A stretch of DNA of 36,026 bases from a bacterium (GTDB taxonomy: Bacteria > CAYTYR01 > UBA6262): assembly GCA_028712895.1 (NCBI GenBank), contig JAQTPL010000020.1:1-36026 (forward strand), read 5' to 3'. The position numbers were made by a program, and so were the translations under genes. Below, one piece after another: positions 239-31,397 of the stretch (position 1 is its first letter; each line of letters starts with the position of its first letter). The notes below the pieces were generated by a model. That model saw nothing but the letters and a program-made list of their open reading frames with translations, did no database searches and was not told the DNA's origin.

Positions 239-1057
239 TTACTGCCGTCTGCCATCCGCCGACTGCGAACTGCGGACTGTTACTTTTCCTTTTTCCACTA
301 CCTGGTACATAATGATCCCTGCAGCTACAGCTACATTCAATGAATCTACGCCCTTACGCTGGGGTATCCTGATCACTTCATCGATTTTCCCGGCTATCTC
401 TTTGTCCATCCCCGCGCCTTCATTGCCAAAGATCAGCGCCAGGGGTAAAGACCATGAAGCTTCATAATAGTTCTTGGAACCACGCGCGTCGCAGGCTATA
501 GTCCTGATATTCTTGCTGCGCAGTTTCGCGATCAGATTCACTAAGCTGTCCACCTTGACCACCGGCAGCCGCAATAACGAACCCATGGTCGCCCGCACCA
601 CCTTAGGATTATACTGGTCAACGGTTTCCTTGCCTAAAATAATCCCGATGACTCCGGCTGCCTCTGCTGTCCTGATGATCGTTCCCAGATTGCCTGGGTC
701 TTGTATCCCGTCCAAGATCACTAAAAAAGGTTTGGGAGCGTCTAATAAGTCTCCCAGATAATGTTCGGTGATGTTGACCACGGCCAGGATGCCCGCCGGT
801 GTTTCACAATCTGATACTGCCGCTAGTTCCTGCGTCGTCACTTTAGTCATCTCTATTTTACTATGCTCCAGATTTTGCAGTAATAACTGGCCACGGCGAT
901 TGGTCTCAAGCTCCTCGGTATAAATTACCTTAAAACGCCGGGCTGGGGACCGGAGCAATTCTTCAACTGCCCGTACCCCTTCCATGATAAAAGCTTTGTT
1001 TTCGGCTCTCCCTTTTTTTTGGTGCAATGATCTTATATAAGCCAGACTGCTTTTCAT
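239..1057 (-). CDS. TrmH/SpoU-family RNA 2'-O-ribose methyltransferase
   Basis: This is a SPOUT-class methyltransferase that uses S-adenosylmethionine to methylate a ribose 2'-OH in rRNA or tRNA. The N-terminal part (about residues 5-95) resembles the SpoU substrate-binding domain. The three SpoU motifs follow: motif 1 near 115-132 (LDGIQDPGNLGTIIRTAEA with the conserved Arg), motif 2 near 208-217 (LIFGNEGAGM) and motif 3 near 231-248 (IPQRKGVDSLNVAVAAGI). The exact target (RlmB-like or tRNA) cannot be told from sequence. Its ATG is 3 nt after the TPR gene's stop with no clear Shine-Dalgarno site, so translation is probably coupled. The last 14 or so residues (about 259-272, ending SADGRRQ) lie beyond the usual family end and are encoded by a 7-nt repeat array. 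Confidence 0.9.
   Translation of the reverse strand: MKSSLAYIRSLHQKKGRAENKAFIMEGVRAVEELLRSPARRFKVIYTEELETNRRGQLLLQNLEHSKIEMTKVTTQELAAVSDCETPAGILAVVNITEHYLGDLLDAPKPFLVILDGIQDPGNLGTIIRTAEAAGVIGIILGKETVDQYNPKVVRATMGSLLRLPVVKVDSLVNLIAKLRSKNIRTIACDARGSKNYYEASWSLPLALIFGNEGAGMDKEIAGKIDEVIRIPQRKGVDSLNVAVAAGIIMYQVVEKGKVTVRSSQSADGRRQ
242..283. repeat. Heptamer array A (CYGCSRW type), at the 3' end of the methyltransferase gene
   Basis: Six consecutive 7-nt units on the plus strand: CTGCCGT, CTGCCAT, CCGCCGA, CTGCGAA, CTGCGGA, CTGTTAC. The first five are close variants of one word and the last is degenerate. The array encodes the C-terminal tail of the overlapping minus-strand gene; the stop codon at 239-241 lies just outside it. 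It shares its word family with arrays at 10973-11007 and 18030-18057. Confidence 0.85.
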
Positions 1058-1060
1058 CAG

Positions 1061-1354
1061 TTATTGTCCAACCAATTTATCCAAATGTTCTTTGGCTAAA
1101 ACGTAGTTATCGTTCAACTCCAGGCATTTCAGGTACATTTCCTTAGCCTTGCCTGGCTCGTTTTTAGCTTCATAGGTAATACCAAGATTATAGTATATAT
1201 CCGCATTTTTGGGATTAAATTTCTGCGCCTTAACAAACTCGCTAATGGCCGCGTCATATTTACCGCTCAGGAAATAAAATTTCCCCAGGTCAATTACGCA
1301 TTCCTCGTCCTCCTTAGTTAAGCAAGCCCGGGGGCATTTCTTCTTGTCAACCAT
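1061..1354 (-). CDS. Small TPR-repeat protein
   Basis: A 97-residue soluble protein with no signal peptide or membrane segment. Residues about 18-85 form two to three tetratricopeptide repeats: ECVIDLGKFYFLSGKYDAAISEF, then ADIYYNLGITYEAKNEPGKA, followed by a partial third helix pair. TPRs make helical solenoids for protein-protein contact, so it is probably an adaptor; its partner cannot be inferred. An N-terminal Cys pair is present (KKKCPRACL, plus EECV), which could be a metal or redox site or chance. It starts 5 nt after the trkA stop with a GAGGAG site inside the trkA end, so it is part of the same transcript. Confidence 0.8.
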   Translation of the reverse strand: MVDKKKCPRACLTKEDEECVIDLGKFYFLSGKYDAAISEFVKAQKFNPKNADIYYNLGITYEAKNEPGKAKEMYLKCLELNDNYVLAKEHLDKLVGQ

Positions 1355-1359
1355 AGATG

Positions 1360-2049
1360 TTATTCCACTCCTCTGAATTTATTAATATCTTTATCCGCGC
1401 CTACCACGACAAGGACATCACCGCTCTCGATCTCATCTTCCGGGAAAGGGGTGACATTTATATCTTCCTTGAATTGGGTCTCGCCGGAATCATTGACTTC
1501 CGGGGTTTTGCGCTTGATCGCAATGATCGTGACCTTATATTGTTTCCGGACGTCCAAGGATTTCAGGCTTTTCCCGGCAAAAGATTTCGGGGATACTAAT
1601 TCCACGATACTATAATCCGGGGACAGCTCGATATACTCATAGATATTAGGAGAGATCAGGCTTTCGGCGACCTTAGCGCCGATATCCCGTTCCGGGAAGA
1701 TTACCCGGTCCACGCCGATCTTGCGCAGGACTTTCCCGTGCAGGCTGCTGATCGCCTTAGTGACGATCATCTTCACACCCATCTCCCGCAGGAGCAGGCT
1801 GACCATAATGCTGGTCTCCATGCTCTCGCCGACGCTGACGATTGCAACGTCAACATTTTTTATATCCAGTGACTTTAAGACTTTTTCATCACTGGCATCA
1901 GCTTTAACCGCATAGGTCACTTTTTCGCTGATATCCTGGATGCGTTCTTCATCTTTGTCAATAGCCAGCACCTGCCCGCCTTTTTCCGCCAGGCTAAGCG
2001 CTACACTGCGGCCAAAATTTCCCAATCCGATAACGGCAAATTGTCTCAT
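1360..2049 (-). CDS. ktrA: TrkA/KtrA-type potassium channel regulatory subunit
   Basis: A cytoplasmic ring-forming regulator that binds nucleotides and gates the TrkH/KtrB pore. Residues 1-120 form an RCK_N Rossmann domain with the dinucleotide motif GLGNFG near the N-terminus and an acidic end of beta-2 (AIDKDEE). Residues about 135-228 form an RCK_C (TrkA-C) domain. The single RCK pair (229 aa) fits KtrA rather than the double-length E. coli TrkA. The start is ATG after AGGAGAAAAGC; that Shine-Dalgarno site overlaps the trkH stop codon, indicating tight coupling. An inserted acidic loop (about 185-205, VNDSGETQFKEDIN) is longer than usual. The symbol is a family-level choice. Confidence 0.9.
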   Translation of the reverse strand: MRQFAVIGLGNFGRSVALSLAEKGGQVLAIDKDEERIQDISEKVTYAVKADASDEKVLKSLDIKNVDVAIVSVGESMETSIMVSLLLREMGVKMIVTKAISSLHGKVLRKIGVDRVIFPERDIGAKVAESLISPNIYEYIELSPDYSIVELVSPKSFAGKSLKSLDVRKQYKVTIIAIKRKTPEVNDSGETQFKEDINVTPFPEDEIESGDVLVVVGADKDINKFRGVE

Positions 2050-2058
2050 GCTTTTCTC

Positions 2059-3387
2059 CTATCCAATCAAAACTTTTTCTTCGGCATATGTATATAATTC
2101 ATGGCCTTTGGCTTCCATAATAGCTATCCCCAGGGTCAACGGGCCGACCCGGCCGAAATACATGGTGATCGTTATCAGGAGTTTACCCAGATCAGAAAAA
2201 TAGCCAGACAAACTGACGCTGCCGGCTGGCGCTGCGGATAATCCAACCGTGCCGAAAGCGCTGACCACCTCAAACAGTAGGCGCAGGAAATCCTTTTTTT
2301 CCACTATCGCCAAACCCATAGTGACCAAAATTATTAAAACCATGGCCACGCTGGCCAGCGCAAACGATTTACGCACTATTTCCCCGGGTATTTTGCGGTT
2401 ATGAATATTAATATTATATTTCCCGCGCAAGGTAGCTTTGACACTGGCGATCATGATGCCGAACGTGGTAGTTTTAATACCACCGCCGGTACCACCAGGT
2501 GAGGCGCCGATAAACATAAGGATCATGATAAAAAACAAGGTAGCCGGCTGCATTAAACCAAGATTGACCGTATTAAAACCAGCGGTCCGGGGAGTTACTG
2601 CCTGGAAATAGCTGACTAGGACTTTCTGGTGCAAGGGCAAAGAAGCCAAGATCGCCGGATTCTTATATTCTTGTATCAGGATCACCAATGTCCCGATTAG
2701 TATCAACAAGACAGAGATCTGCACAGCCATCCTGGTATGAATAGATACTTTTTTGCTGTGGCGGTAATTATGAATCTCACTAATGACAATAAAACCCAGT
2801 CCACCGATAATGATCAGGGAAGTGATCGTCAGGTTCACAACAACATCAGTGGTATAACGGGAAAGGTTACTGGAAAATGTGCTAAACCCGGCATTGCAGA
2901 AAGCGCTGACACAATGGAACAAGGCATAGCCAAAAGCATCTTTGACTGGAAACTCCCGGCTCCAGTGGATAGTTAAGATAAGGGTAGCTAACCCCTCGAT
3001 CAATAAAGTGATCTTTACTATATATTTTACAAAACTACCCAAGTCAGCCAAGCTATATTGGTTGACACCTTCCTGGATATTCAATTTATCTTTAATACTG
3101 AGCTGTTTATTGAAAAGCAGGAACATCATGGTAGCCAGGGTAATATATCCCAAGCCGCCTATTTGGATCAATAGCAGGATAATGCTCTTGCCCCATAACG
3201 AGTAATGAGTAGCTGTATCCACAGTGATCAACCCGGTAACGCAAATAGCGCTGGTTGACGTGAATAAAGCATCTATAAAATGAGTGGATTCGCCGCGAGC
3301 ATTGGCAAACGGCATAGTCAGCAATAACGCTCCGAATAAGATCAAAGAGGCAAATCCGATCGCTAAAACCTTATGTGGGGTAAACAT
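2059..3387 (-). CDS. ktrB: TrkH/KtrB-family potassium uptake pore
   Basis: A polytopic inner-membrane protein of 442 aa, the usual length for KtrB and shorter than TrkH. It carries the four MPM repeats of this superfamily, each with a P-loop glycine: SAICVTGLI, FCNAGFS, TPRTAGFNT and SAFGTVGLS. These glycines form the K+ selectivity filter. A conserved positively charged residue in the later helices is expected to gate transport. It pairs with the downstream RCK subunit to make a Na+- or H+-coupled K+ importer. It lies 36 bp downstream of rplT with only a weak GGGTG-type Shine-Dalgarno sequence, so it probably shares the ribosomal-protein transcript. Confidence 0.92.
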   Translation of the reverse strand: MFTPHKVLAIGFASLILFGALLLTMPFANARGESTHFIDALFTSTSAICVTGLITVDTATHYSLWGKSIILLLIQIGGLGYITLATMMFLLFNKQLSIKDKLNIQEGVNQYSLADLGSFVKYIVKITLLIEGLATLILTIHWSREFPVKDAFGYALFHCVSAFCNAGFSTFSSNLSRYTTDVVVNLTITSLIIIGGLGFIVISEIHNYRHSKKVSIHTRMAVQISVLLILIGTLVILIQEYKNPAILASLPLHQKVLVSYFQAVTPRTAGFNTVNLGLMQPATLFFIMILMFIGASPGGTGGGIKTTTFGIMIASVKATLRGKYNINIHNRKIPGEIVRKSFALASVAMVLIILVTMGLAIVEKKDFLRLLFEVVSAFGTVGLSAAPAGSVSLSGYFSDLGKLLITITMYFGRVGPLTLGIAIMEAKGHELYTYAEEKVLIG

Positions 3388-3423
3388 GGACTATTTCACC
3401 CTGCCCTTCTTAAGCCGGCTGCT

Positions 3424-3783
3424 TTAAGCTGCTAACTGCTGCTTGGCCACTTCCACCAGAGCGGTAAAAGCTTTGGCATCATTTACTGCCAGGTCAGCCA
3501 GGATCTTCCGGTCAATACCTACCTGCGCCTTCTTCAGGCCATTCATCAAACGGTTGTACGATAAGCCATTAATGCGGGCAGCAGCATTGATCCTAATGAT
3601 CCAGAGCGCGCGAAAGTCTCTCTTTTTTGCCCGCCGGTCCCGGTAAGCGTAATCCAAACTTTTATCTACCTGTTCTGTAGCATGACGGTAGAGTTTGGAT
3701 TTTCCCATCCGGTACCCTTTGGCCCTTTTAAATATTTTCTTTTTCCACGCCCGCGTGGTCTTACCGCTTTTCACTCTCGACAT
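3424..3783 (-). CDS. rplT: 50S ribosomal protein L20
   Basis: Complete L20 (119 aa): the basic N-terminal extension ([15 protein letters not shown]) that threads into 23S rRNA, then the globular part with [11 protein letters not shown] and the [15 protein letters not shown] stretch. The start is the ATG at 3781-3783 behind GGAGG with 6 nt spacing; an in-frame extension to 3831 has no family homology and is rejected. In bacteria L20 commonly represses its own operon by binding the infC leader. It is third in infC-rpmI-rplT. The gene is separated from rpmI by a repeat-filled gap of 114 bp. Confidence 0.97.
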
Positions 3784-3804
3784 AATAATCCTCCAAAATA
3801 ATTT

Positions 3805-3892
3805 ACGAGTCTGCGCGTCTCTCGAGTCCATCGAGTCTGGATTTTTGCCGTTATTGACTCGCGACTCGCGGACCCGTGACCCGTGACCTATC
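3805..3892. repeat. Short-unit repeats between rpmI and rplT
   Basis: Two adjoining arrays. In the first (3805-3840) the element GAGTC recurs with spacing 8-9 (CGAGTC, GCGTC, CGAGTC, CGAGTC). In the second (about 3855-3890) GACTCGC and GACCCGT alternate with spacing 7, 8, 7, 7. They occupy most of the rpmI-rplT gap and are transcribed with it. The rplT Shine-Dalgarno sequence lies outside the arrays. Confidence 0.75.
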
Positions 3893-3897
3893 TACAC

Positions 3898-4095
3898 TTA
3901 AGCGTACGGTATTAATTTCTTAACCATTTTTGTATCAGTTAAATTAAGCATTCCGCTTTTACGCAAGGTTCTTAGTTTCTTGGTTTTCTTTTTCGTCAAA
4001 ATATGCCGGGCATGCGATTTTTTGTACATGACCTTACCGGTCCCGGTTACGCGGAAACGCTTCTTAGCCCCGCTATGGCTTTTTATTTTTGGCAT
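3898..4095 (-). CDS. rpmI: 50S ribosomal protein L35
   Basis: A 65-residue, very basic protein matching L35 from end to end: N-terminal MPKIKSHSGAKKRF, a central HARHILTKKKTKKLR block and the short C-terminal MVKKLIPYA. Length and all conserved blocks are normal. The ATG follows GAGGAG with 6 nt spacing. It is second in the infC operon; the preceding 129 bp gap contains an inverted repeat (4118-4220). Confidence 0.97.
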   Translation of the reverse strand: MPKIKSHSGAKKRFRVTGTGKVMYKKSHARHILTKKKTKKLRTLRKSGMLNLTDTKMVKKLIPYA

Positions 4096-4117
4096 GTAAT
4101 GCTCCTCATATTATTTT

Positions 4118-4220
4118 ACCCCGTTAGAAAAAGCCCCGTTATTTTCGGCAGGGTATACCTTATAGCACGATCCGGTGTGGAGAAAGAACAATTTAAAAAA
4201 CTTGTTCCTTCTAACGGGGT
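4118..4220. repeat. Inverted-repeat element with CCCCGTTAGAA ends, infC-rpmI gap
   Basis: ACCCCGTTAGAA at 4118-4129 and its exact reverse complement TTCTAACGGGGT at 4209-4220 bound about 80 nt; a further CCCCGTTA lies at 4134-4141. The unit nearly fills the gap between infC and rpmI and would fold into a long hairpin in the mRNA. A related unit with the same three pieces in the same order is at 25271-25352, suggesting a dispersed element rather than an operon-specific structure. Confidence 0.7.
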
Positions 4221-4224
4221 TTAA

Positions 4225-4740
4225 TTATTTTTTTGCTGGCCCCAGCAACATGAACATGGTATTCCCCTCCATTTTGGGCGACTGTTCAATAGTTGCGGTA
4301 GTGGCGAAACGTTCTTCAATCTTCTTCATAATGCCCACCCCTAATTCCATATGCGCCATTTCCCGGCCCCGGAACTGCATGGCGATCTTGACCTTGTCTC
4401 CTTCAGCCAGGAATTCTTCGGTGTGGCGCAGTTTTACTTCCAGGTCATGGGCGCCGATCTTCGGCCTGATCTTTATTTCCTTTACATGGATCACCTTATG
4501 GCTTTTCCTGGCCTTTTTTTCCTTTTTTTCCTGTTCGTACCTGTATTTACTGTAATCCATTATTTTACAAACCGGAGGAGTTGACTGGCCGGATATTTCC
4601 ACCAGGTCTAGCCCCTTCTCAACAGCCATACTCTGGGCTTGGGAAAGTGCTACTATGCCCAAGGGTTGTCCTGCTTCATCGATCAACCTGACTTCGTTGC
4701 CTCTGATCCGTTCATTGATCCGTAACTCTTCTCTAGCGAT
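4225..4740 (-). CDS. infC: Translation initiation factor IF-3, starting at a rare AUC codon
   Basis: IF-3 binds the 30S subunit, blocks premature 50S joining and proofreads the start codon. The product begins IAREELRINERIRGNEVRL and continues through the IF3-N domain, the lysine-rich linker (YEQEKKEKKARKSHK) and IF3-C (KEIKIRPKIGAHDLEVKL). Homology extends upstream of the first ATG/GTG/TTG candidates: the only standard codon, TTG at 4684-4686, would delete 18 conserved residues. An ATC codon at 4738-4740 lies exactly 7 nt from an AGGAG site (4748-4752), giving a normal 171-aa protein. AUU/AUC/AUA starts are a known infC hallmark that lets IF-3 repress its own translation. A structured leader and strong promoter lie upstream. 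Confidence 0.95.
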   Translation of the reverse strand: MAREELRINERIRGNEVRLIDEAGQPLGIVALSQAQSMAVEKGLDLVEISGQSTPPVCKIMDYSKYRYEQEKKEKKARKSHKVIHVKEIKIRPKIGAHDLEVKLRHTEEFLAEGDKVKIAMQFRGREMAHMELGVGIMKKIEERFATTATIEQSPKMEGNTMFMLLGPAKK

Positions 4741-4784
4741 AACGTCTCTCCTCTCAGAATGGCTCAGCCATTCAATAAAAAATA

Positions 4785-4826
4785 ATCGCTGATGGCCCCA
4801 CCGTAAAGGGAACTATTATCAGCGAT
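4785..4826 (-). terminator. Candidate attenuator hairpin in the infC leader
   Basis: On the transcribed strand ATCGCTGAT (4818-4826) pairs perfectly with ATCAGCGAT (4785-4793); inside lies a CCC...GGG mini-stem. The stem is followed by TATTTTTTATT, so it resembles an intrinsic terminator about 45 nt before the infC start codon. In several bacteria the infC-rpmI-rplT leader is regulated by L20 through transcription termination; that role here is inference. Confidence 0.6.
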
Positions 4827-4837
4827 ATAATAGAAGA

Positions 4838-4883
4838 TTATCATATGATAACCTTTTGGCTCATAATGCAGCATTACTGCATT
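4838..4883 (-). promoter_or_regulatory. Two further palindromes in the infC 5' leader
   Basis: TTATCATATGATAA (4838-4851) is a perfect 14-bp palindrome, and AATGCAG (4865-4871) with CTGCATT (4877-4883) forms a 7-bp stem with a 5-nt loop. Both are within the roughly 180-nt untranslated leader between the promoter and infC and upstream of the candidate attenuator. They could be alternative structures or protein sites; no known motif was recognised. Confidence 0.45.
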
Positions 4884-4927
4884 GACCATACGGTGAGAAG
4901 TTATTAGCTTCTGCTTTCATAGATTGA

Positions 4928-4956
4928 TTTATATCATATTCACGGTCTATTGTCAA
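4928..4956 (-). promoter_or_regulatory. Promoter of the infC operon
   Basis: Consensus -35 TTGACA (4951-4956, transcribed strand), 17-bp spacer and -10 TATAAA (4928-4933). The -35 box overlaps the dnaE stop codon (4953-4955). It would start transcription near 4921 and give a leader of about 180 nt before infC. Confidence 0.8.
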
Positions 4957-8399: not shown

Positions 8400-8406
8400 G
8401 CTTTTC

Positions 8407-10972: not shown

Positions 10973-11005
10973 CCGCTGACTGCGAACCGCGGACTGCTGT
11001 CTGTT

Positions 11006-11007
<2 letters not shown>
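10973..11007. repeat. Heptamer array C, at the groEL stop
   Basis: Five exact 7-nt units on the plus strand: CCGCTGA, CTGCGAA, CCGCGGA, CTGCTGT, CTGTTTT. The last unit abuts the groEL stop codon (11006-11008). The word family (CYGCSRW) is shared with arrays at 242-283 and 18030-18057. It lies between groEL and its terminator, so it is transcribed as 3' untranslated RNA. Confidence 0.85.
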
Positions 11008-12640
<1,633 letters not shown>

Positions 12641-16555: not shown

Positions 16556-16573
16556 ATGAACTCCCAAAAACAA

Positions 16574-16601
16574 TTTTGAGTTTTGAGTGTTGAGTTTTGA
16601 A
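16574..16601. repeat. Heptamer array D (TTTTGAG type), birA-coaX gap
   Basis: Four 7-nt units on the plus strand: TTTTGAG, TTTTGAG, TGTTGAG, TTTTGAA. A second low-complexity tract of AATTCAAAAT/AATTTAAAAT words follows at 16627-16657. Together they fill most of the 87-bp gap upstream of coaX. Confidence 0.75.
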
Positions 16602-16642
16602 TTAAGGTAAAAAGCTCTTCACCTAAACTTATAATTCAAAAT

Positions 16643-17644
16643 TTATAATTTAAAATTGTTTTTTTGCAAGGTTACTTCTCCGGCTATGACCCTGAATACC
16701 TGATTTTTTGATTTCAATACCAGCCGGCCCTCAGCGTCTATCTCTATAACTTTTCCACTAATAATTTCCTCTCCCTGCCTGATCTTGACATTTTTGCCGG
16801 CCAAGATTTCAAAACTCCTGTATTCATGAACAATATTTTTCCAGTCACCTGCCAGGAAGCGTTTATAATAACGCTCCAGCTCCAATAATATCTGCTGCAA
16901 CAGTTTTACCCGTACCACCGGCAGATTACCAGGGACTTGAGCTTTTAAACTGGTTACTTTAGAACGCAATTCTGCCGGAAATTTATTTTTATCTATATTT
17001 ACATTTAAGCCGATCCCAGTCACCAGGTAATTGACCCGGTCGCTTTCTGCCCCCATCTCGGTCAATATTCCGCCAACTTTAAGATAGGTACCTTTACCTG
17101 CTATTACCAGGTCATTTGGCCATTTCAGCTGTATGGCTGCGCCGCACACTTTTTTGATCGCCGCCGCTACAGCTATGCCAGCCATCAGGGTAAACCGCTG
17201 GGCGTAAGCCGGCAATACTTCCGGCCGCAAGACCAGGCTAAAACAAATACTGCCGCCGGCAGGTGAAAACCAGGAACGGCCTAACCGGCCCTTGCCTTGT
17301 GTCTGCATTTCAGCCAATACCAGAGTCCCTTCCGGAGCACCGGACTGGGCCAGTTTTTTAGCAAAATTATTGGTCGAATCAATACTAGGGAAATAATAGA
17401 TCTTGGGGCAAAACATCTTGGCTTGTAATCCAGCCTTAATTTCAGTTGGCAGCATCAGATCAGGGCTGGACCGCAGAATATAACCATTTTTTTTAAGGGC
17501 GCTGATATCATACCCATGTTTCTTCAGTGATTGGATCTGTTTCCAGATAGCGATACGGGAAACACCCAGCTTTGCGGCCATGGCTTCACCGCTCATATAA
17601 GTGCCGGTCTGTTTTCTTAGCAATCCCAATACATCGTCTTGCAT
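16643..17644 (-). CDS. birA: Bifunctional biotin--[acetyl-CoA carboxylase] ligase / biotin repressor
   Basis: Attaches biotin to the carboxylase carrier protein through biotinyl-5'-AMP. An N-terminal winged-helix region (about 3-60: SGEAMAAKLGVSRIAIWKQIQSL) identifies the group II, DNA-binding type. The catalytic core shows SIDSTN, the ligase loop QTQGKGRLGRSW, KWPNDL and GILTEM, and a C-terminal SH3-like domain ends the protein. The ATG at 17642-17644 is chosen because GGAG lies 5 nt upstream; the earlier GTG overlaps that site. No bio genes or biotin operator are visible here. 333 aa, a normal length. Confidence 0.95.
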   Translation of the reverse strand: MQDDVLGLLRKQTGTYMSGEAMAAKLGVSRIAIWKQIQSLKKHGYDISALKKNGYILRSSPDLMLPTEIKAGLQAKMFCPKIYYFPSIDSTNNFAKKLAQSGAPEGTLVLAEMQTQGKGRLGRSWFSPAGGSICFSLVLRPEVLPAYAQRFTLMAGIAVAAAIKKVCGAAIQLKWPNDLVIAGKGTYLKVGGILTEMGAESDRVNYLVTGIGLNVNIDKNKFPAELRSKVTSLKAQVPGNLPVVRVKLLQQILLELERYYKRFLAGDWKNIVHEYRSFEILAGKNVKIRQGEEIISGKVIEIDAEGRLVLKSKNQVFRVIAGEVTLQKNNFKL

Positions 17645-17659: not shown

Positions 17660-17687
17660 GACTCTAGATTTTAGACTCCAGACACCA
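17660..17687. repeat. Heptamer array E (GACTCYA type), nadC-birA gap
   Basis: Four exact 7-nt units on the plus strand: GACTCTA, GATTTTA, GACTCCA, GACACCA. The array lies between nadC (ends 17726) and the birA start (17644), a few bases from the birA Shine-Dalgarno sequence. Confidence 0.75.
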
Positions 17688-17725: not shown

Positions 17726-18544
17726 TCATTGTATGATTTCCAAACTGATATCCAAAGCTTTAGCGGAATGCGTAAGCGCGCCGATAGAAATTCGGTTAAC
17801 TCCCAGTTTTGCATATTGCTTTACACTTTTAAGCGTGATACCACCTGATATCTCGATCAAGGTGCGCGGACTGGCCTGGCGAATATATTTGATCGCTTTT
17901 TTCAAGGTCGCTATGTTCATATTATCCAGCAGGATAATATCCACTCCTCCAGCATTCAATATTTCTCGTACTTGTTGAAGGTTTTCTGCTTCCACTTCCA
18001 CTTTCATATTCTTTGGTTTCTGCTTTAATCTGCCAACCGCCATCCGCCAACTGCCAACCAGCTTTAAATGGTTATCCTTTACCAATATCATATCATATAA
18101 GCCGATCCGGTGGTTCACTCCGCCACCGCAGACCACGGCATATTTTTCCAATATTCGTAATCCCGGAGAAGTTTTGCGGGTATCCAGGATCCTGGTTTGA
18201 TACGGTTTCACAGCCTGTACAAACTCGCTGGTCAAGGTAGCTACGCCGGAAAGCTGCTGCAGGAAATTAAGCAGAGTCCGCTCTATTTTCAGGATATTCC
18301 TGGCGCGGCCGTTAAATTTGGCCAAAACCTGTCCCCAGTGGATTTTCTGTCCATCTTTAACCATAAAAATATTTTTGATCCGATACGCTTTTAAGATCTG
18401 CCGGGCAATATCTCTACCGCAGAAAACGCCATTGTCTTTGGCCAGCAAGACAGCTTTTACCTTTTGGTCACGGATCAACAGATTACTGGTAATATCCCCG
18501 CTGCCTATATCCTCTTTTAACGCTTCTTTAATGATTTTTTCCAC
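17726..18544 (-). CDS. nadC: Nicotinate-nucleotide pyrophosphorylase (carboxylating), quinolinate phosphoribosyltransferase
   Basis: Converts quinolinate and PRPP to nicotinate mononucleotide, CO2 and PPi in de novo NAD synthesis. Landmarks: EDIGSGDITS at the start, ERTLLNFLQQLSGVAT, the active-site TRKTSPG with CGGGVNHRIGLYDMILVKDNH, VEVEAENL, and the barrel end ISGGI plus GALTHSAKALDISL. 272 aa, normal. It uses a GTG start with AAAGG 7 nt upstream. nadA and nadB are not in the window. Codons around residues 163-172 (GSWRMAVGR) are formed by a 7-nt repeat array lying inside the reading frame. Confidence 0.96.
   Translation of the reverse strand: MEKIIKEALKEDIGSGDITSNLLIRDQKVKAVLLAKDNGVFCGRDIARQILKAYRIKNIFMVKDGQKIHWGQVLAKFNGRARNILKIERTLLNFLQQLSGVATLTSEFVQAVKPYQTRILDTRKTSPGLRILEKYAVVCGGGVNHRIGLYDMILVKDNHLKLVGSWRMAVGRLKQKPKNMKVEVEAENLQQVREILNAGGVDIILLDNMNIATLKKAIKYIRQASPRTLIEISGGITLKSVKQYAKLGVNRISIGALTHSAKALDISLEIIQ
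18030..18057. repeat. Heptamer array F inside the nadC coding sequence
   Basis: Four exact 7-nt units on the plus strand: CTGCCAA, CCGCCAT, CCGCCAA, CTGCCAA. It is in frame with nadC and gives the peptide VGSWRMAVGR without changing the expected length of the protein (families have GSxxxAVxxA here). Same word family as arrays A and C. Confidence 0.8.
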
Positions 18545-18556
18545 GCTGTTGCCTTT

Positions 18557-18598
18557 CTATACGCTATACGCTATCCGCCATACGCTATATGCTATTAA
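18557..18598. repeat. Heptamer array G (CTATACG type), yjbQ-nadC gap
   Basis: Six 7-nt units on the plus strand: CTATACG, CTATACG, CTATCCG, CCATACG, CTATATG, CTATTAA. On the minus strand the array supplies the last residues and the TAG stop (18585-18587) of the YjbQ gene, and it fills the gap up to 13 bp before nadC. Confidence 0.85.
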
Positions 18599-19923: not shown

Positions 19924-21968
19924 CTTTCCTCCTTGTTTTTACTGCTCTTTGTTTTTACTGGCAACTGCTCCTCGCTTAGACTGTCCTTCGCCTTTACTGC
20001 CTTCGACAGTTCCAATAACCTATTACGTAGCATAATTGCCAGTTCAAAATCAAGATTATCCGCAGCTTCCCGCATCTGCCGTTCCAAATCTTTAAGCAAA
20101 GCCGGGGTAGCTTTCTCCGGCGTATACTTATATCCTTCGTCCCTGACAAAACTATAGATCTTCTGTTTAGCCACAGAAGTGAACTCTGCCAGGTCCTGGA
20201 TGGCTTTCTGAATGGTCCGCGGCGTGATCTTGTGTATCTTATTATATTCCATTTGTTTTATCCGGCGGCGTTTGATCTCGCTGATCGCCCGCTGCATCGA
20301 ACCAGTCATGTTGTCAGCGTACATTAATACTTTCCCGTCGACATTTCTCGCCGCTCTCCCGCACACCTGGACCAGGGAGGTCTCTGACCGTAAAAATCCT
20401 TCTTTATCCGCGTCCATGATCGCCACCAGGGAAACCTCCGGCAGGTCCAATCCTTCCCTTAACAAGTTGACTCCGACCAGGCAGTCAAACTCTCCCTTGC
20501 GCAGGTCCCGCAGGATCTCCACCCGCTCCAGGGTGTCAATTTCTGAATGCAGGTATTTGACGCGCAGTCCTTTATCCAGCAGGAAATCAGTCAGGTCCTC
20601 GGCCATCCGTTTGGTCAGGGTGGTCACCAGGGTACGATGGTGCTTGGCTACCCGCTCCATGACTTCCTTGATCAGGTCATCGATCTGCCCTTTGCTCGGC
20701 CGGATCACTATCTCCGGATCCACCAGCCCGGTCGGCCGGATGACCTGCTCCACAATTACTCCCTTTGTTTTCTCCAGCTCAAACTTGGCCGGAGTAGCTG
20801 AAACAAAAATGACTTGCTTCATTAATGACTCTATTTCCGCGAATTTCAAGGGCCGGTTATCGATCGCGCTGGGGAGCCGGAAACCATAATCGATCAAGGT
20901 CTGCTTGCGTGACCTGTCCCCATGGTACATCCCGTTCAACTGGGGAATGGTCACGTGGGATTCATCAATGAACATCAAGTAGTCTTCCGGAAAATAATCA
21001 ATCAGGCACTTGGGGCGTTCACCTGGCTGGCGGTTGTCAAAATGGCGGGAATAGTTCTCTATCCCGCTGCAATAACCGATCTCCCGGATCATTTCCAGGT
21101 CAAAATTAGTGCGCTGTTCCAAGCGCTGGGCTTCCAATAGTTTATTCTGGCTTCTCATCTCCGCCAGCGTCTGCTCCAGTTCTATCTTGATATTAGCCAT
21201 GGCCTTTTCAAACTGGGGAGTGCTGGTCACATAGTGTTTTGCCGGGTAAATATATACTTTATCCTTTTCCGCGATCGTTTCCAGGCTGACTGGATTCACT
21301 TCCCTGATCCGACTGATCATATTCCCATCAAGTTCCAGCCGGATGGCAGTTTCCATATTAGCCGGAAAGATATCCACTATTTCTCCCTTAACCCTGACCG
21401 TACCGCGGTGGAAATCAATATCATTGCGCTCGTAATAGATGCTGATCAGCTGCCTGATTATTTCATCCCGGTTGATCTCCGCGCCTTTGGTCAGCACTAC
21501 CTGCGCCTGGCGGAACTCATCCGGTGAACCTATATTATAGATACAGGAAACCGAAGCCACGATAATAACGTCCCGGCGTTCCAGAAGAGAGCTGGTGGCT
21601 TTGAGCCGCAGCCGGTCGATCTGGTCATTGATAGCCAGGTCTTTTTCAATATAAGTATCGGTTTGGGGGATGTAGGCTTCAGGCTGGTAATAGTCATAAT
21701 AGGAGACAAAATATTCTACCGCGTTTTCCGGGAAAAATTGCTTGAATTCCCCGTAAAGCTGGGCCGCCAGAGTCTTGTTATGGGAGATGATCAGGGTAGG
21801 CCGATTCACCTTTTCAATGACATTGGCCATGGTAAAAGTTTTACCGCTACCAGTTACACCTAGTAGTACCTGGTATACCTCGCCCGCCCCTAATCCGGCA
21901 GTCAACTGGCGGATCGCTTCAGGCTGGTCTCCCTGCGGTTTATAGTCAGAAAAAAGCTTAAATTTCAT
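19920..21968 (-). CDS. uvrB: Excinuclease ABC subunit B
   Basis: UvrB is the damage-verifying helicase of nucleotide excision repair; it is loaded by UvrA and recruits UvrC. Present are Walker A (GVTGSGKT, K43), the beta-hairpin [15 protein letters not shown] that clamps one DNA strand, motif II DESH, the helicase C-terminal motifs ([28 protein letters not shown]) and a C-terminal UVR motif ([20 protein letters not shown]) that contacts UvrC. 682 aa, full length. No Shine-Dalgarno site precedes the ATG; instead a promoter places the predicted start site at the ATG itself. Confidence 0.98.
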
Positions 21969-24677: not shown

Positions 24678-24681
24678 AAGA

Positions 24682-24751
24682 TTCGGCACCCGATGTACGG
24701 AGACGAAGCCCGAAAGAAAAATTATTATCGGGCGTCGTTACCCTAGCCGAA
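24682..24751. terminator. Nested stem-loop between convergent GH57 and flavodoxin genes
   Basis: Outer arms TTCGGC (24682-24687) and GCCGAA (24746-24751) enclose an inner stem GCCCGA (24708-24713) with TCGGGC (24728-24733), extended by GAC with GTC across a 3-nt bulge. On the minus strand the closing arm is followed by TCTTTT, so it may end the flavodoxin transcript; on the plus strand the U-run is weak. The surroundings (24678-24789) hold further CCCGA/GGGC words but no gene. Confidence 0.5.
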
Positions 24752-24789
24752 AAACGAGGTTTTTAAACGGGCATCGAAAACGTATATCG

Positions 24790-25272
24790 TTAACCGAGTA
24801 TGTTTTTTATCTCTTCTTTCACTATTTCAATATTATCAATATCAGAACTAGCGACACTAAGAAGCCTTACTTCCCTGGCTTCTTTCTTTTTTAATATCTT
24901 AGCCATATTTTCCAGGCACCGGTCTTTTCCCAAACCACTGCCATAGGTCACAAAAGCTAAAGTCTTTTTACCCACCAACCCGACGCAATCCTTTATATAA
25001 GTGCGCATAGCCGGCACTGGCTCCAGCGCCCATACTGGACTACCAAAACATACCAGGTCATATGGCGACACTACTACGAATGTGCTTTCTACCTTGGTCC
25101 TGATACGAAAAAATGCCTTCAGGCACTTGCCAATGTATGATTTAGGCTCATTAGGCGCGTGCAGCCAACGTTCATCCACTGCCCAGCCCTGGTTATGCAA
25201 ATGTTCCCCGACCAAATGCGCCAGTTTCTTGGTATTCCCTGTTTCTGTGTAATAGACGATCAAAGCCTTCAC
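24790..25272 (-). CDS. Flavodoxin-like FMN protein
   Basis: 160 aa with a flavodoxin fold. The FMN phosphate loop TETGNTKK lies at 9-16, the isoalloxazine loops follow with FGSPVWALEPVPAMRTYI (about 76-93) and FVTYGSGLGKDRC (about 107-119). Such proteins carry electrons or act as quinone/FMN reductases; the acceptor is unknown. The GTG start at 25270-25272 has an ideal AGGAGGT site; it overlaps the first arm of an inverted-repeat element. It is the last gene of the minus-strand group that starts with the RlmI-type methyltransferase. Confidence 0.88.
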   Translation of the reverse strand: MKALIVYYTETGNTKKLAHLVGEHLHNQGWAVDERWLHAPNEPKSYIGKCLKAFFRIRTKVESTFVVVSPYDLVCFGSPVWALEPVPAMRTYIKDCVGLVGKKTLAFVTYGSGLGKDRCLENMAKILKKKEAREVRLLSVASSDIDNIEIVKEEIKNILG

Positions 25273-25352: not shown

Positions 25353-25372
25353 TCATGAAACCCCCAGTTTTC

Positions 25373-26176: not shown

Positions 26177-26203
26177 CTTGGTCTCCTCTTTATATTGATC
26201 CTA

Positions 26204-26911: not shown

Positions 26912-26930
26912 TTGTCCTCCATTAGGGTTC

Positions 26931-28106
26931 TCAGGTTACTTGCATAATCGCGCATTTGAGATATTGTGTTTCCGGCATGGCTAACAGTACAGGATGATCT
27001 TTAGCCTGGCCGCGGAACTCCAGCAGGCGTAGGGTCCGCTTGGAACGCAACGCACTATCCTTGAGCATATTGATGAAAGTATATTCATCCATGTAATGCG
27101 AGCAGGATGAAGATATCAGTATCCCGCCCTTTTTCACCGTCTGCATCGCCAAGCCATTCAATTTCCTGTATCCTTTGATCGCCTGCGGCAGGTTCTTTTT
27201 TGATTTGGTAAATGACGGCGGGTCCACATTCACAACGTCAAATAATGTATTCTTCAACACTGCTTCAGTCAAATACTCAAACACATCAGCAGCGACAAAT
27301 TCACAATTTTTAAATTCATTCAGATCGGCATTTTCCTGAGCTTCTTTGACCGCATCTTTTGAAGCATCCACCCCAATCACTTTTACACTCTCATATTTCG
27401 CGGCAGACAGTGAAAATCCCCCGCCGTAACAGAAACAATCTAAAACCGTCTTTTGCGAAACATAGCTCTTGAGCGCTTCCCGGTTATCCCGCTGATCAAA
27501 AAAGAACCCGGTTTTTTGCCCATTCACTATATCTACCTTGAAATCCAGGCCATTCTGCTCGATCACCAGGTGATTTGAAGGTTCCGGGCCAACTAACGGC
27601 TTTTTATATAACTCCATCCCCTCCAACGTCCTGACTTCAGAATCATTACGGAGATAAATCCCGACTGGCTTAAAGATATCAGTTAAAGCCTGACCGATCA
27701 TTTCCAGCCTCTGTTCCATACCCAGGCTCAACACTTGTATTACTAAATAATTTTCATATTTATCAATGACCAGCCCCGGCAGGAAATCACTTTCGCCATA
27801 TACGATGCGGTAAGATCTTTCAGTAGGATACAGTTCTTGCCGTAAGTTATGGGCCTGAGTGATGCGCTTCTTAAAAAACTCTGCATCAATCTCTTCCCGC
27901 TCTTTGGTCAATATCCTGGCCGCGATCAGGGAATTCTTATTCACTAGCCCCAATCCCAGGAATACATTCTGGCTGGACACGACTTCAGCTATGTCCCCGT
28001 TATTAATATCACCGGAATATTGGTCGATCTCATTGGAAAATACCCAGAGATGCCCGGCTAATAATCTTTTTTCTTCATTTTTTTTTAATATTACTTTAGC
28101 CGCCAT
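26931..28106 (-). CDS. RlmI-type class I rRNA (cytosine-C5) methyltransferase
   Basis: 391 aa. An N-terminal PUA domain (about 1-75: KRLLAGHLWVFSNEI) for RNA binding precedes an S-adenosylmethionine Rossmann domain: VLDCFCYGGGFSLSA (SAM loop), VIGVDAS, VNVDPPSFTKSKKN (catalytic loop) and SSSCSHYM. This order fits RlmI/RlmL-like enzymes that methylate C1962 of 23S rRNA; the exact base is inferred by family. The ATG at 28104-28106 is chosen since AAAGG is 6 nt upstream, whereas the ATG at 28112 overlaps that site. Confidence 0.9.
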   Translation of the reverse strand: MAAKVILKKNEEKRLLAGHLWVFSNEIDQYSGDINNGDIAEVVSSQNVFLGLGLVNKNSLIAARILTKEREEIDAEFFKKRITQAHNLRQELYPTERSYRIVYGESDFLPGLVIDKYENYLVIQVLSLGMEQRLEMIGQALTDIFKPVGIYLRNDSEVRTLEGMELYKKPLVGPEPSNHLVIEQNGLDFKVDIVNGQKTGFFFDQRDNREALKSYVSQKTVLDCFCYGGGFSLSAAKYESVKVIGVDASKDAVKEAQENADLNEFKNCEFVAADVFEYLTEAVLKNTLFDVVNVDPPSFTKSKKNLPQAIKGYRKLNGLAMQTVKKGGILISSSCSHYMDEYTFINMLKDSALRSKRTLRLLEFRGQAKDHPVLLAMPETQYLKCAIMQVT

Positions 28107-28138
28107 ATTCATCCTTTAGCGATATTAAATAAAAAAAC

Positions 28139-28167
28139 TTGCCAATATCTATAAAATATGTTAAATA
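28139..28167 (+). promoter_or_regulatory. Possible promoter of the lipoprotein gene
   Basis: TTGCCA (28139-28144), 17-bp spacer and TAAATA (28162-28167). The -10 is a weak match. It lies in the divergent region between the RlmI-type gene and the lipoprotein. Confidence 0.35.
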
Positions 28168-28209
28168 CTATTTATGATCTTTATTCAATCTGTTGGAGGG
28201 AAGCAAGCT

Positions 28210-28599
28210 ATGAAAAAAATAGTATTTGCGTTTTTATGCTTATTCATTATCGCTGGCTGCAGTGATGATGATCCTAACAACGAATTAATCCTCAGAAATA
28301 GTTCTTTGGCTGCAGTAACCGTAAATTTCCGGGGCACTCATTACCCACTAACCGTAGGGCAAAGTGAAATTATTAGAGATATTCCCAATGGCACTTATGC
28401 TTATGAAACTGCTGTCTCACTTCCATCAGGAGCGACATCAGTGACTAAAGGCACACATCTGGATGACACGCTACAGTTCACCGGGGAAACCAAGTATACT
28501 ATTTTTTATATTGGCACTTTGCTCGAAGAGGTATATGAGATCAATGCCACTCTTTCCACAACAAACCAGGAAGAAGCTGCCAGTCGTCTGCTGCCTTAA
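28210..28599 (+). CDS. Small lipoprotein of unknown function
   Basis: 129 aa with a short signal peptide and lipobox I-A-G-C (Cys17), followed by SDDD. The mature part reads as short beta strands (NELILRNSSLAAVTVNFRG; TKYTIFYIGTLLEEVYEI), resembling a small beta-sandwich. I recognise no family. The ATG at 28210-28212 is chosen since GGAGGG is correctly placed upstream; a longer frame starting at 28174 has neither that nor homology. The stop is 2 bp from the convergent queF stop with no hairpin between, so their transcripts must overlap. Confidence 0.7.
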   Translation: MKKIVFAFLCLFIIAGCSDDDPNNELILRNSSLAAVTVNFRGTHYPLTVGQSEIIRDIPNGTYAYETAVSLPSGATSVTKGTHLDDTLQFTGETKYTIFYIGTLLEEVYEINATLSTTNQEEAASRLLP

Positions 28600-28601
28600 T
28601 C

Positions 28602-28997
28602 CTAATGATTTCTTCTGCTCTTGTACTCAGCTTCTACCGTGGTAATGATACCGCCACGGGGAGTGAATATCCCTTTAATTCCGGCCCACTTTGGTCTACA
28701 AGCGGCGGTGAAATCCTGCAAAATCCTGTTCACGGCATTTTCATGAGAAATACCCAAATTACGGTATCCTAAAATATAATATTTAAATGATTTAAGCTCC
28801 ACGCACAATTTATCCGGTATATACTCGATGGTAATGGTCGCAAAATCAGGCAGGGCCGTATGTGGGCAAAGAGACGTATATTCAGGCACAGAAATAGTGA
28901 CTTTGTAATCCTTGAATAAGTTCGGGAATACGTCCAACTGCGGCAGCTTCGCTTCCAGCCCGCCCTTCGCCAACTTCATCTTCTCTCTTAAATCCAT
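28602..28997 (-). CDS. queF: NADPH-dependent 7-cyano-7-deazaguanine reductase
   Basis: QueF reduces preQ0 to preQ1 in queuosine synthesis. The 131-aa protein is the short, single-T-fold type. The catalytic Cys and Asp fall in SLCPHTALPDFATI (C44, D51), and the substrate stretch LKSFKYYILGYRNLGISHENAVNRI is near-canonical. The ATG follows a G-rich site (GGGGG). queH at 30202 belongs to the same pathway; queC, queD and queE are not in the window. Confidence 0.93.
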   Translation of the reverse strand: MDLREKMKLAKGGLEAKLPQLDVFPNLFKDYKVTISVPEYTSLCPHTALPDFATITIEYIPDKLCVELKSFKYYILGYRNLGISHENAVNRILQDFTAACRPKWAGIKGIFTPRGGIITTVEAEYKSRRNH

Positions 28998-29030
28998 ACT
29001 TTTCCCCCAAATAAGTAATTTTGAGTTTTA

Positions 29031-29444
29031 TCATTCCCCTATAATTTTAATCAGCACTCTCTTCTTCCGCATCCCATCAAATTCCCCGTAGAATATCTGC
29101 TCCCACGGCCCGAAATGCAGCTCCCCATTGGTGACCGCCACTACCACTTCCCGGCCCATCACAGTTCTCTTAAGGTGCGCATCACCGTTGTCTTCGCCGA
29201 CATTGTGCTCATACTTATCCTTGCTGTAAGGAGCTAATCTTTCCAGCCACTTCATGAAATCCCGGTGCAATCCAGGCTCATTGTCGTTGATAAACACACT
29301 GGCGGTGATATGCATGGCATTTACCAGGCACAAACCTTCTTTTACCCCGCTCTTCTTCAATGCTTCCTCTACCTGGTCGGTAATATTAATAAATTCATAG
29401 CGGGTTTTAGTGTTAAACCACAATTCCTCTTGGTATGATCTCAT
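29031..29444 (-). CDS. YjbQ/UPF0047-family protein, second copy
   Basis: 137 aa. UPF0047 features: [23 protein letters not shown] (conserved His and Asn-Asp-Asn), [19 protein letters not shown] and [16 protein letters not shown]. It belongs to a divergent branch in which the NENADP and LGTWQGIYLCEFDGPR motifs of the first copy are replaced. Function is unknown. The ATG follows GGGAGGG. It lies between a HAD phosphatase and queF. Confidence 0.88.
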
Positions 29445-29462
29445 AGGACCCTCCCTGGAAAT

Positions 29463-29516
29463 GATTACACCGATTACTAAAGATCCGCCAGAGGCGGACA
29501 GGGATTACACAGATTA
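29463..29516. repeat. GATTACAC repeats around a TCCGCC-AGA-GGCGGA palindrome
   Basis: GATTACACCGATTA (29463-29476) and GATTACACAGATTA (29503-29516) flank the 6-bp inverted repeat TCCGCC (29484-29489) / GGCGGA (29493-29498). The GATTA words repeat at about 9 nt. It occupies the gap between the HAD phosphatase and yjbQ-2 genes. Confidence 0.65.
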
Positions 29517-29521
29517 GAGCA

Positions 29522-30154
29522 TTACATTATTTTTAACAGTTGTCTTAGATTATTAATTACTTTGTATGGCTTCTGCTGGGCCAGTTCTTTCCGGCTGCAG
29601 GACCCGCCCAGGATGGCTATTGCTTTAACCTTGGCGTTTTTGCCGGCTTTGATATCATAGACCATGTCACCGACATACAGGGCTTCCTGCGGTTTTATTT
29701 TTAATTTTTTCAATGCTTTTTTCAATAAATAGGGCTCTGGTTTTAACTCATGCTTCTTATCAGCGCAGACTATCAGGTCAAAATATTTCTCCAGGTCCAA
29801 GTGCCGGACCAAAACATTACTAAATTTTGTCGGGCGGTTGCTGGCTACAGCCAGTTTGATCCCCTGCCGTTGCAATGCTGATAAAACCTTCCTGGCTTGC
29901 GGTTTTAATGTTGAATATCGCTGTAATGCCTCCCGGTGATGCTTCCGGTAAAGGGTCAACCCCTTGCTGGCGTCTGCCGCTTTCACGAACTGCGATATAA
30001 AATGCTTGTCCCCGCGCCCCACCGCGCGCTTGCACCGGTCATAGCTGATTTTCTTGTATCCCAAAGACCGCAAAGTAAAATTAAGGCTTTTCTCGATCGC
30101 CCTGTAGGCATTGATCAGCGTGCCATCCAGGTCAAATATCACAAGTTTGATCAT
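29522..30154 (-). CDS. HAD-superfamily phosphatase (phosphoglycolate phosphatase-like)
   Basis: 210 aa with all HAD motifs: motif I DLDGTL at the N-terminus (nucleophile Asp), motif II Ser in LAVASNR, motif III Lys in ELKPEPYLL, motif IV GDMVYDIKAG. A helical cap (about 15-85) is the C1 type of the Gph/PpaX group, which clears 2-phosphoglycolate or hydrolyses pyrophosphate; the substrate is not decidable from sequence. The ATG follows AAAGGA. It lies between queH and yjbQ-2, in the same direction. Confidence 0.88.
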   Translation of the reverse strand: MIKLVIFDLDGTLINAYRAIEKSLNFTLRSLGYKKISYDRCKRAVGRGDKHFISQFVKAADASKGLTLYRKHHREALQRYSTLKPQARKVLSALQRQGIKLAVASNRPTKFSNVLVRHLDLEKYFDLIVCADKKHELKPEPYLLKKALKKLKIKPQEALYVGDMVYDIKAGKNAKVKAIAILGGSCSRKELAQQKPYKVINNLRQLLKIM

Positions 30155-30159
30155 GACAA

Positions 30160-30255
30160 TCCTTTGCGAATTACTCGAATGATAGCGAATATCTCGAATA
30201 CTTACTTAGTTCCTATTCGGCTCTTATTCGCATCCCTTAATTCGGCTTCTATTCG
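30160..30255. repeat. CGAAT/ATTCG repeats between queH and the HAD gene
   Basis: CGAAT recurs four times at 9-10 nt spacing in about 30172-30205, and TATTCG/TAATTCG recurs about four times through 30212-30255. The second half reads through the last codons of queH (residues about 170-188). Confidence 0.6.
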
Positions 30256-30768
30256 TGATTTTTCACATCCGCAATAATGTTGCCGGTAAAAATTATGCTC
30301 CTTGGCAAAATCCATGGTTTTCTTGAAACCATCCTGCTTTTTAAAATCATACGGCAGGAAACCAGCGCAAATTTCAGAACCTATCTTGTTAATCTCCTGC
30401 ACATTTTTGTGCGGGCTGACTGACAAAGTTGAGGCCATGTGCTCTATCCCTAGTTCTTTTGTTTTCTCTGCTGTCTTTTGCAGTCTTACCCTGAAACAGG
30501 CCAGGCAACGCTTGCCGCCTTCTGGTTCTGCCTCTAGTCCTTGTATGCACTTCTGCCAGGCACTAGGTTCATATAGCCCTTCCACCAGTGTAAAGCCAAG
30601 CAATTGACTTGCCTGCCGGACCACTTCCAGGCGCTGTTTATATTCTTCTTGCGGATAAATGTTCGGATTATAGAAATAGCCGGTCACTTCAAAGCCATCA
30701 TCCCGTAATCTCTGTACCACAGAACCGGCACATACCCCGCAGCAGATATGTAATAATACTTTTTTCAT
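30202..30768 (-). CDS. queH: Epoxyqueuosine reductase QueH
   Basis: Reduces epoxyqueuosine in tRNA to queuosine; it is the non-homologous replacement of QueG. 188 aa. The Cys signature is present: HICCGVC at the N-terminus, RCLACFRVRL in the middle and HYCGCEKSR near the C-terminus, which together hold the 4Fe-4S cluster and adjacent metal. The last 15 or so residues (AELRDANKSRIGTK) are encoded by an ATTCG repeat tract and lie past the usual end. The start overlaps the aldolase stop (ATGA), so translation is coupled. Confidence 0.93.
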   Translation of the reverse strand: MKKVLLHICCGVCAGSVVQRLRDDGFEVTGYFYNPNIYPQEEYKQRLEVVRQASQLLGFTLVEGLYEPSAWQKCIQGLEAEPEGGKRCLACFRVRLQKTAEKTKELGIEHMASTLSVSPHKNVQEINKIGSEICAGFLPYDFKKQDGFKKTMDFAKEHNFYRQHYCGCEKSRIEAELRDANKSRIGTK

Positions 30769-31346
30769 CTTTGTCTTTGCTTTCCGCGTAAGAGCAGGTT
30801 TACCTTGGCTTGCTCTTCCAGCATCTCGATCAGGGCAAAAGCAGAACGAAAATCCTCACCCATAGCCACTACGCCATGGTTCTTCAATACCGCAATATTG
30901 CTGGTATCCAGGGCGGCTAAGACCGGGGCGATCCTGGTCACGGTCAGGGTAGATTGGGGAATAACCGGCAACTTCTCAAAATGGAGCTTGGATTCAAAGC
31001 CGAAGATATCCAGTTTCCGGTAACATTCAAAAAACGCTACGGTATGGATTGGATGCGCGTGGATCACCACGTTCACTTTCGGGAATTTGCGCAGTATCCC
31101 CAGATGCAGGTCTTTTTCCATAGTTAGCCGGCAGTCCCGTGATCCGGCAAGTATCCGGCCATCAAGACCAGCAACTGCTATCTGGGATGCAGTTAGCATA
31201 CCCAGATAGCAATTAGTCACGGTCAAGAGTATCTTTTGCTGGCTGGTCCGCGCAGAAACATTTCCTGACCTGCCAGCCACCAGGCCTCTCTCCCAAAGGA
31301 GATGCGCCCAATATATAAATTCTTTCTTATTTAAATCTATTTTCAT
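30765..31346 (-). CDS. Class II aldolase/adducin-family protein
   Basis: 193 aa, zinc-dependent class II aldolase fold (AraD/FucA/MtnB group). The substrate loop AGRSGNVSAR, the TMEKDLHLGIL stretch with the catalytic acid, the metal motif HAHPIHT and the third ligand His in LKNHGVVAMG are all present. Such enzymes cleave or epimerise sugar phosphates or dehydrate methylthioribulose-1-phosphate; which one is not clear, and no other sugar genes are near. The Shine-Dalgarno site is weak and lies in a repeat tract (31356-31397). Confidence 0.85.
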   Translation of the reverse strand: MKIDLNKKEFIYWAHLLWERGLVAGRSGNVSARTSQQKILLTVTNCYLGMLTASQIAVAGLDGRILAGSRDCRLTMEKDLHLGILRKFPKVNVVIHAHPIHTVAFFECYRKLDIFGFESKLHFEKLPVIPQSTLTVTRIAPVLAALDTSNIAVLKNHGVVAMGEDFRSAFALIEMLEEQAKVNLLLRGKQRQR

Positions 31347-31355
31347 AGCACCATC

Positions 31356-31397
31356 ACTTTCAACTTACCACTTACCACTTAATACTTATCACTTTTA
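31356..31397. repeat. Heptamer array H (ACTTACC type), OMP-aldolase gap
   Basis: Units of 7 nt on the plus strand: ACTTTCA, ACTTACC, ACTTACC, ACTTAAT, ACTTATC, then a 6-nt ACTTTT and ACTTAAA. It fills the gap between the beta-barrel gene stop (31399) and the aldolase start (31346). Confidence 0.8.

Follow-up and report, generated by a model that had tools for sequence, protein, structure and literature searches.

Heptad arrays in the window

The stretch of DNA described here (hereafter the window, 36,026 nt) is contig 28 of a draft metagenome-assembled genome (1.93 Mb in 75 contigs) of the phylum Elusimicrobiota. Its genes are of ordinary housekeeping character (including those for a SpoU methylase and TrkH, as well as dnaE, groL, coaX, birA and nadC), and among them lie arrays of tandem 7-nt units (heptads), eight of which had been listed in an original prediction made from the sequence (Table 1). 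The arrays were scored as the number of matching bases in 21 at a lag of 7 nt, with third-order Markov windows as the background. In the window, 9 loci reached at least 15/21 (0.35 expected) and 4 reached at least 17/21 (0.01 expected). Seven of the eight predicted loci are individually above chance; the exception is the array adjoining groL, at whose score 1.6 loci are expected, though its orthologues are clear arrays. The prediction had placed the arrays at gene ends or in short gaps, with one inside a gene, but two are genic: 242-283, in the 3' end of the methylase gene, and 18030-18057, in nadC.

Two of the arrays are halves of longer hairpins. In the coaX-birA gap, both arms of a 98-nt element are heptad arrays (16570-16606 and 16625-16658; match to model R2 with E 3.6e-13), while in the rpmI-rplT gap the right arm consists of GACTCGC/GACCCGT heptads and the left arm is irregular, of the GAGTC type. 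Adjoining the groL heptads, a period-9 array (11012-11038) is coding and corresponds to the MPQ-type repeats of the GroEL C-terminus.

Table 1 Heptad arrays and hairpin elements of the window. Lag-7 scores are matching bases in 21; a dot marks features listed without a strand.
Feature	Position	Strand	Location	Lag-7 score	Further data
Single heptad arm	242..283	- (AG strand)	Inside 3' coding end of SpoU/TrmH-type methylase gene 239-1057 (stop codon at 239)	15/21	
Hairpin element	3803..3886 (about)	.	rpmI-rplT gap	15/21 (predicted array 3855-3890)	Fold z -3.3
Weak heptad arm	10973..11007	-	Directly 3' of groL (stop codon about 11006)	14/21	
Complete family A (AGTTTTG) hairpin	16566..16663	.	coaX-birA gap	18/21 (predicted array 16574-16601)	Fold z -5.2
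Heptad array GACTCTA	17660..17687	.	birA-nadC gap	15/21	
Heptad array (LVGSWRMAVGRL)	18028..18060	-	Inside nadC coding sequence	17/21	
Single family B (AGCGTAT) arm	18553..18596	-	nadC / UPF0047 junction	18/21	nhmmer E 8.8e-6
Single heptad arm ACTTACC	31353..31396	-	Gap between co-directional genes	18/21	

A genome-wide excess of period 7

The autocorrelation at lag 7 that had been proposed as a check was run on 960 kb of the same genome and on 454 kb of a congener (UBA6262; G001), i.e. on about half of the former and a quarter of the latter, with crude calls of open reading frames (ORFs) and three contigs masked. In the genome of the window there were 76 matches at lag 7, 14 at lag 8, harmonics at lags 14 (28) and 21 (8), and 0-8 at the remaining lags; 57 of the 76 lag-7 matches lie mostly outside called ORFs, which occupy 89.5% of the sampled sequence. 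The congener gave 60 matches at lag 7, 17 at lag 8, 18 at lag 14 and 16 at lag 16 (the doubled lags), and between 0 and 4 at any other lag. A further 20 genomes, sampled at 20 kb each (400 kb), yielded 3 lag-7 matches, every one an A/T run. Period 7 is thus a genome-wide excess and the arrays are real. The anticipated picture of one dominant period with many words, instead of a single repeat sequence, holds, but the period is not constant, since arrays of period 8 also occur.

The words are not specific to their loci, as had been supposed. The 117 arrays of the own-genome sample fall mostly into about ten recurrent word families (among them AGCGTAT, AGATGGC, AGCTCAT, AGTTTTG and AGTTGAT), nearly all in the phase AG-Y-NNNN. 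With the units aligned in their best AG phase, A occupies position 1 (0.85) and G position 2 (0.89), C, T or A prevail at position 3, and the greatest variation between adjacent heptads falls on position 5; the strength of the AG phase is in part a product of this alignment, because AG is its key, and words containing AG or CT make up 0.83 of the total against 0.65 expected. Neighbouring units are identical in only 12% of cases, no more commonly than units two apart, and instead of one near-perfect recurrent word per genome (the Xanthomonas or cyanobacterial type) there are many.

Arrays as arms of imperfect palindromes

An inverted partner arm was found within 160 nt on the 3' side of the AG strand for 37% of arrays (score at least 24), compared with 2.2% on the opposite side and about 1.5% in the control. 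The 38 paired elements listed are imperfect palindromes of 56-208 bp, typically 70-110 bp. Several predicted folds are strong (z -5.2, -6.7 and -5.8) and others weaker (-3.3 and -2.5). In the consensus of the AGCGTAT family, paired blocks of 3-4 bp alternate with mismatched stretches every seven bases. Paired octad arrays (TATCAGGN and others) have the same polarity, with a small excess (0.30 versus 0.16 in the control). Octads form a second period class, e.g. at L139 4136, L167 7522 and L215 14681 (TAGAGTGG, TATCAGGN, TGTAAAGC), some of them as inverted pairs.

Of 60 paired elements, 54 lie in co-directional gaps, 6 in convergent and none in divergent ones; a few elements lie inside genes, in frame. 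In co-directional gaps the AG strand has no clear orientation bias relative to the genes (29 sense and 25 antisense for paired elements, 23 and 13 for single arms). A T run does not usually follow the elements listed, which in this respect differ from intrinsic terminators; separate terminators are present beside or inside some of them, and at L013 11816-11939 and L003 1254-1385 a separate terminator-like hairpin lies in the loop between the heptad arms.

The reading that we favour, with a probability of roughly two in three, is that the arrays are arms, or surviving single arms, of several related, non-autonomous families of short palindromic repeats interspersed in the genome, and that the sites of these repeats last whereas what fills them is replaced, by overwriting or by reinsertion.

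Dispersed families and copying of whole elements

Searches with nhmmer and covariance models placed each family at many unrelated loci, and near-identical whole elements, with the order of units conserved, occur at such loci. The element at L151 12991-13060 of the own genome, for example, is nearly identical over 70 bp, loop included, to the rpmI-rplT element of the congener. In family B (AGCGTAT), units at the same position in different loci agree at 0.83, whereas different units of one arm agree at 0.75 and different positions at different loci at 0.76. Perfect 21/21 matches to other loci were more frequent with the unit order kept than with it shuffled, both in the own genome (0.20 versus 0.11) and in the congener (0.11 versus 0.04).

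The families are unevenly distributed over the five phylum genomes searched (G000-G004). Covariance-model matches, counted on both strands at about two per element (so that elements number about half), were, in that order, 57/43/67/0/0 for family B, 44/41/3/34/0 for family A and 63/14/23/6/0 for family C. Family B is hence present in three members of the genus and not in G003, family A in G000, G001 and G003 (the three matches in G002 are weak), while family C is essentially a bloom of G000; neither G004 nor four unrelated genomes gave any match to families A-C. Some family C elements are clustered about 177-187 bp apart (G000:C55 34658, 34836 and 35012; G000:C66 18526 and 18713). The word pools are species-specific as well: AGATGGC occurs in 16/117 own arrays and 0/88 of the congener, and AGTTGCG/AGTTTCG in no own array and 13 of the congener. 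The claim that the arrays are not one mobile repeat therefore survives in so far as there is no single sequence, but it overlooked several dispersed families of mobile type with lineage-specific blooms.

These data bear on a slippage-type process at each locus, one of the two mechanisms that had been suggested. In its fullest form this explanation, combining in-place slippage with concerted evolution, regards the arrays as minisatellite sites at which the polymerase sets the unit length, the word drifts and the units homogenise each other. Slippage at a polymerase footprint has been discussed in the literature (cited in PMC4692102), and units do resemble their neighbours a little more than distant units (0.79 versus 0.73), though the arrays were selected for just that. 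Against it stand the scarcity of identical neighbours, the inverted second arm, the unit order common to different loci and the near-identical whole elements at unrelated loci. In-place slippage is not the main process, because whole elements are dispersed copies with unit order kept and with blooms in single lineages; as an account of the arrays we regard it as improbable.

Sites shared between species

Array thresholds differed slightly between the genomes in the tests of site sharing (16/21 and 15/21). Among own array loci with a syntenic segment in the congener, 16/24 hold an array there too, and in the reverse direction 19/24 do. Best 21-nt identity at 15 shared sites spans 7 to 21: four sites clearly carry the same word, five are intermediate and six (7-13) are no closer than typical array pairs drawn at random (mean 10, 95th percentile 17). 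As judged from these comparisons, a site often still has an array in a related species, but one of another word, and sites outlive their content.

The window offers several examples. At the methylase site, G003 carries ATCAACT heptads and G001 TTTACACC octads; the rpmI-rplT gap has AGCGTAT hairpins in G001 and G002 in place of GACTCGC. Between the groL stop codon and the terminator, a near-identical slot carries clear arrays of AGCGTAT (G001) and AGTTGAT (G003); altogether, three words occupy the groL 3' end in three species. In the birA-nadC gap, G001 has an AGCTTGA/AGCATTT element and G003 nearly no gap sequence; the nadC / UPF0047 junction is empty in G003 and carries an AGTTGCG/AGGTTTC hairpin in G001. 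The array at 31353..31396 has no counterpart in either G001 or G003.

Shared sites also lie within genes, including nadC, a phosphohexomutase-like gene, a DegT-like aminotransferase gene and two putative signal peptides; the three L146/L169 genes among them are named from a reading of their sequences and not from a database result. The nadC array aligns without gaps to those of G001 (word AGTTGAT) and G003 (AGTTGGC), and the aminotransferase loop reads QLVAHSSQLVG in one species and QRMANGKWRM in the other. Heptad arrays inside genes may be a source of fast peptide change. At L146 2241-3953 and L169 18386-19039, the arrays encode N-terminal segments resembling signal peptides, with other words in the congener.

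Phase and often length are kept where the word has changed (51/51, 60/60 and 50/50), as slippage with homogenisation would also predict. Same-word orthologues, however, are equally long (55/55, 56/56 and 58/58), and the four orthologous arrays that clearly share a word (at least 20/21) have almost no variation in copy number, contrary to what an active mechanism had been expected to leave. Moreover, a heptad hairpin at L009 10856 is an octad hairpin in the congener, the same switch being seen at trmH, and at L146 11349 the two species carry arrays on opposite strands; drift with homogenisation is unlikely where period or strand changes.

A second alternative is that ordinary repeats resembling miniature inverted-repeat transposable elements (MITEs) inserted independently into the few permissive gaps, so that shared sites reflect limited space or target preference. 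The compactness of the genome, the density of arrays, the avoidance of divergent gaps and the A/T-rich outer flanks all suit this view. Still, of the gaps delimited by the gene calls, 8/15 of those with an own array hold one in the congener as well, against a background of 10/61 (odds ratio 5.8, p 0.005), and coding-sequence sites shared at sometimes near-identical codon positions and with similar length would be hard to obtain twice. We consider independent insertion rather unlikely as a general explanation, although independent reinsertion at preferred sites, or drift with homogenisation, may account for some sites.

The arrays could, finally, be binding sites, in DNA or RNA, of a protein that recognises AG-Y at seven-base intervals, the sites being selected at many operons. 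Heptad-reading regulators exist, the omega repressor of pSM19035 being one, and a phase common to different words, together with the location between co-directional genes, would fit. The word at a given gene, however, changes from one congener to another, insertions occur inside unrelated coding sequences, pairing in family C does not covary and family A is nearly absent from the congener G002, all of which makes this the least probable of the explanations considered.

A proposed model of copied and overwritten palindromes

Returning to non-autonomous palindromic repeats, the sequence comparisons establish dispersed multi-copy families, whole-element copies, lineage blooms, persistent sites and changed words, and on this basis the following model may be put forward. 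An arm consists of 4-5 heptads in the AG-Y-NNNN phase (octads in a minority of families), and an element measures about 70-110 bp. With its second arm lying 3' in inverted orientation, the element can fold into a long hairpin in which mismatches recur at regular intervals. The copies spread as whole units, bloom in single lineages, and settle mainly between co-directional genes and occasionally in frame inside genes; a putative copying activity would move them. An element of whichever family is active at the time may then overwrite an occupied site, by ectopic conversion or by template switching, with the AG-phase heptads that the elements share and the A/T-rich inner flanks as guides; alternatively, such a site would be subject to targeted reinsertion. 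That copy-and-replace acts at fixed sites, in-frame genic ones included, so that architecture and phase are inherited while the heptad or octad sequence is exchangeable, is a tentative part of the model, which we hold possible but would not yet rely on.

Several observations weigh against the favoured reading. None of the three empty or near-empty sites examined shows a clear target-site duplication or an insertion scar, and no clean empty site was found. Two Y1 transposase genes of the RAYT type (repetitive extragenic palindrome-associated tyrosine transposase; L174 and L179 in G000) lack obvious flanking heptad hairpins, and a RAYT link was rejected on this ground, the search for a parental element having covered Y1_Tnp only. 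Some words at shared sites are just 2-3 bases apart (AGTTGGC/AGTTGAT), differences that drift with homogenisation could give. Base-pair covariation in family C is no better than in shuffled sequences; a function of the hairpin as RNA is therefore not supported, and the pairing need not be RNA-selected. With this result and no Rfam match in the window, a structured, selected RNA hairpin was rejected.

The window contains other repeats as well. A short dispersed intergenic repeat (29462-29517) has many copies across the contigs of G001 (83-95% identity), two more (24683-24798 and 19935-20000) have many partial copies in G001 and G002, and near infC an intergenic hairpin-like repeat (4115-4229; AGCCCCGTT ... 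AACGGGGTTT) has copies elsewhere in G002.

Comparison with known repeats

Like MITEs, the elements are short, non-coding and multi-copy with terminal inverted repeats. Rickettsia palindromic elements and bacterial MITEs are likewise short palindromes, some of them in frame inside genes, but their sequence is family-specific, and neither a heptad period nor an exchange of words at given sites is known from them. Repetitive extragenic palindromes (REPs), with REPINs and RAYTs, are similar in being palindromic, extragenic (sometimes genic), multi-family and located between unidirectional or convergent ORFs (PMC3733652). REPs, however, are 20-40 bp palindromes with a GTAG or CGTC tag at the foot and, in the GTAG type, RAYT linkage (PMC3733652), whereas the elements listed here have heptad-array arms and no fixed tag.

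The original prediction knew of no named system that would explain the arrays; there is a literature on heptamer arrays of bacteria (PMC4692102, PMC4679880, PMC2700814). Such arrays have been on record for decades, with slippage suggested as their origin; a search for literature on tandem repeats in Elusimicrobia found nothing relevant. The present genus indicates that such arrays can be arms of dispersed palindromic repeats copied whole, and persistent sites with exchanged words provide a testable alternative to slippage for a period-7 excess. The TAACTGA repeats of Beggiatoaceae and the short tandemly repeated repetitive sequences (STRR) of cyanobacteria are also short intergenic heptamer arrays of patchy distribution, but with an exact single word in direct repeats, in Beggiatoaceae upstream of start codons (PMC4679880, PMC4692102). 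The GGGAATC repeats of Xanthomonas are likewise dispersed, imperfect, mostly intergenic heptamer arrays with conserved gene context and 70-75 convergent inverted pairs per genome; they differ in having one G-rich word per genome and up to 26 units, and the part of that account at hand mentions neither a pool of families nor whole-word exchange, both features of the elements described here (PMC4692102).

In Geobacter metallireducens, some elements lie at a fixed distance from insertion sequence copies, which was not seen here, and the elements were read as sites bound by regulators or as RNA elements, with no comparison of orthologous sites in the accessible text (PMC2700814). They comprise several families built of four or five heptamers or octamers in tandem, often in opposite-strand pairs and in part within genes, and in this multi-family, paired organisation they resemble the elements of the present genome (PMC2700814).

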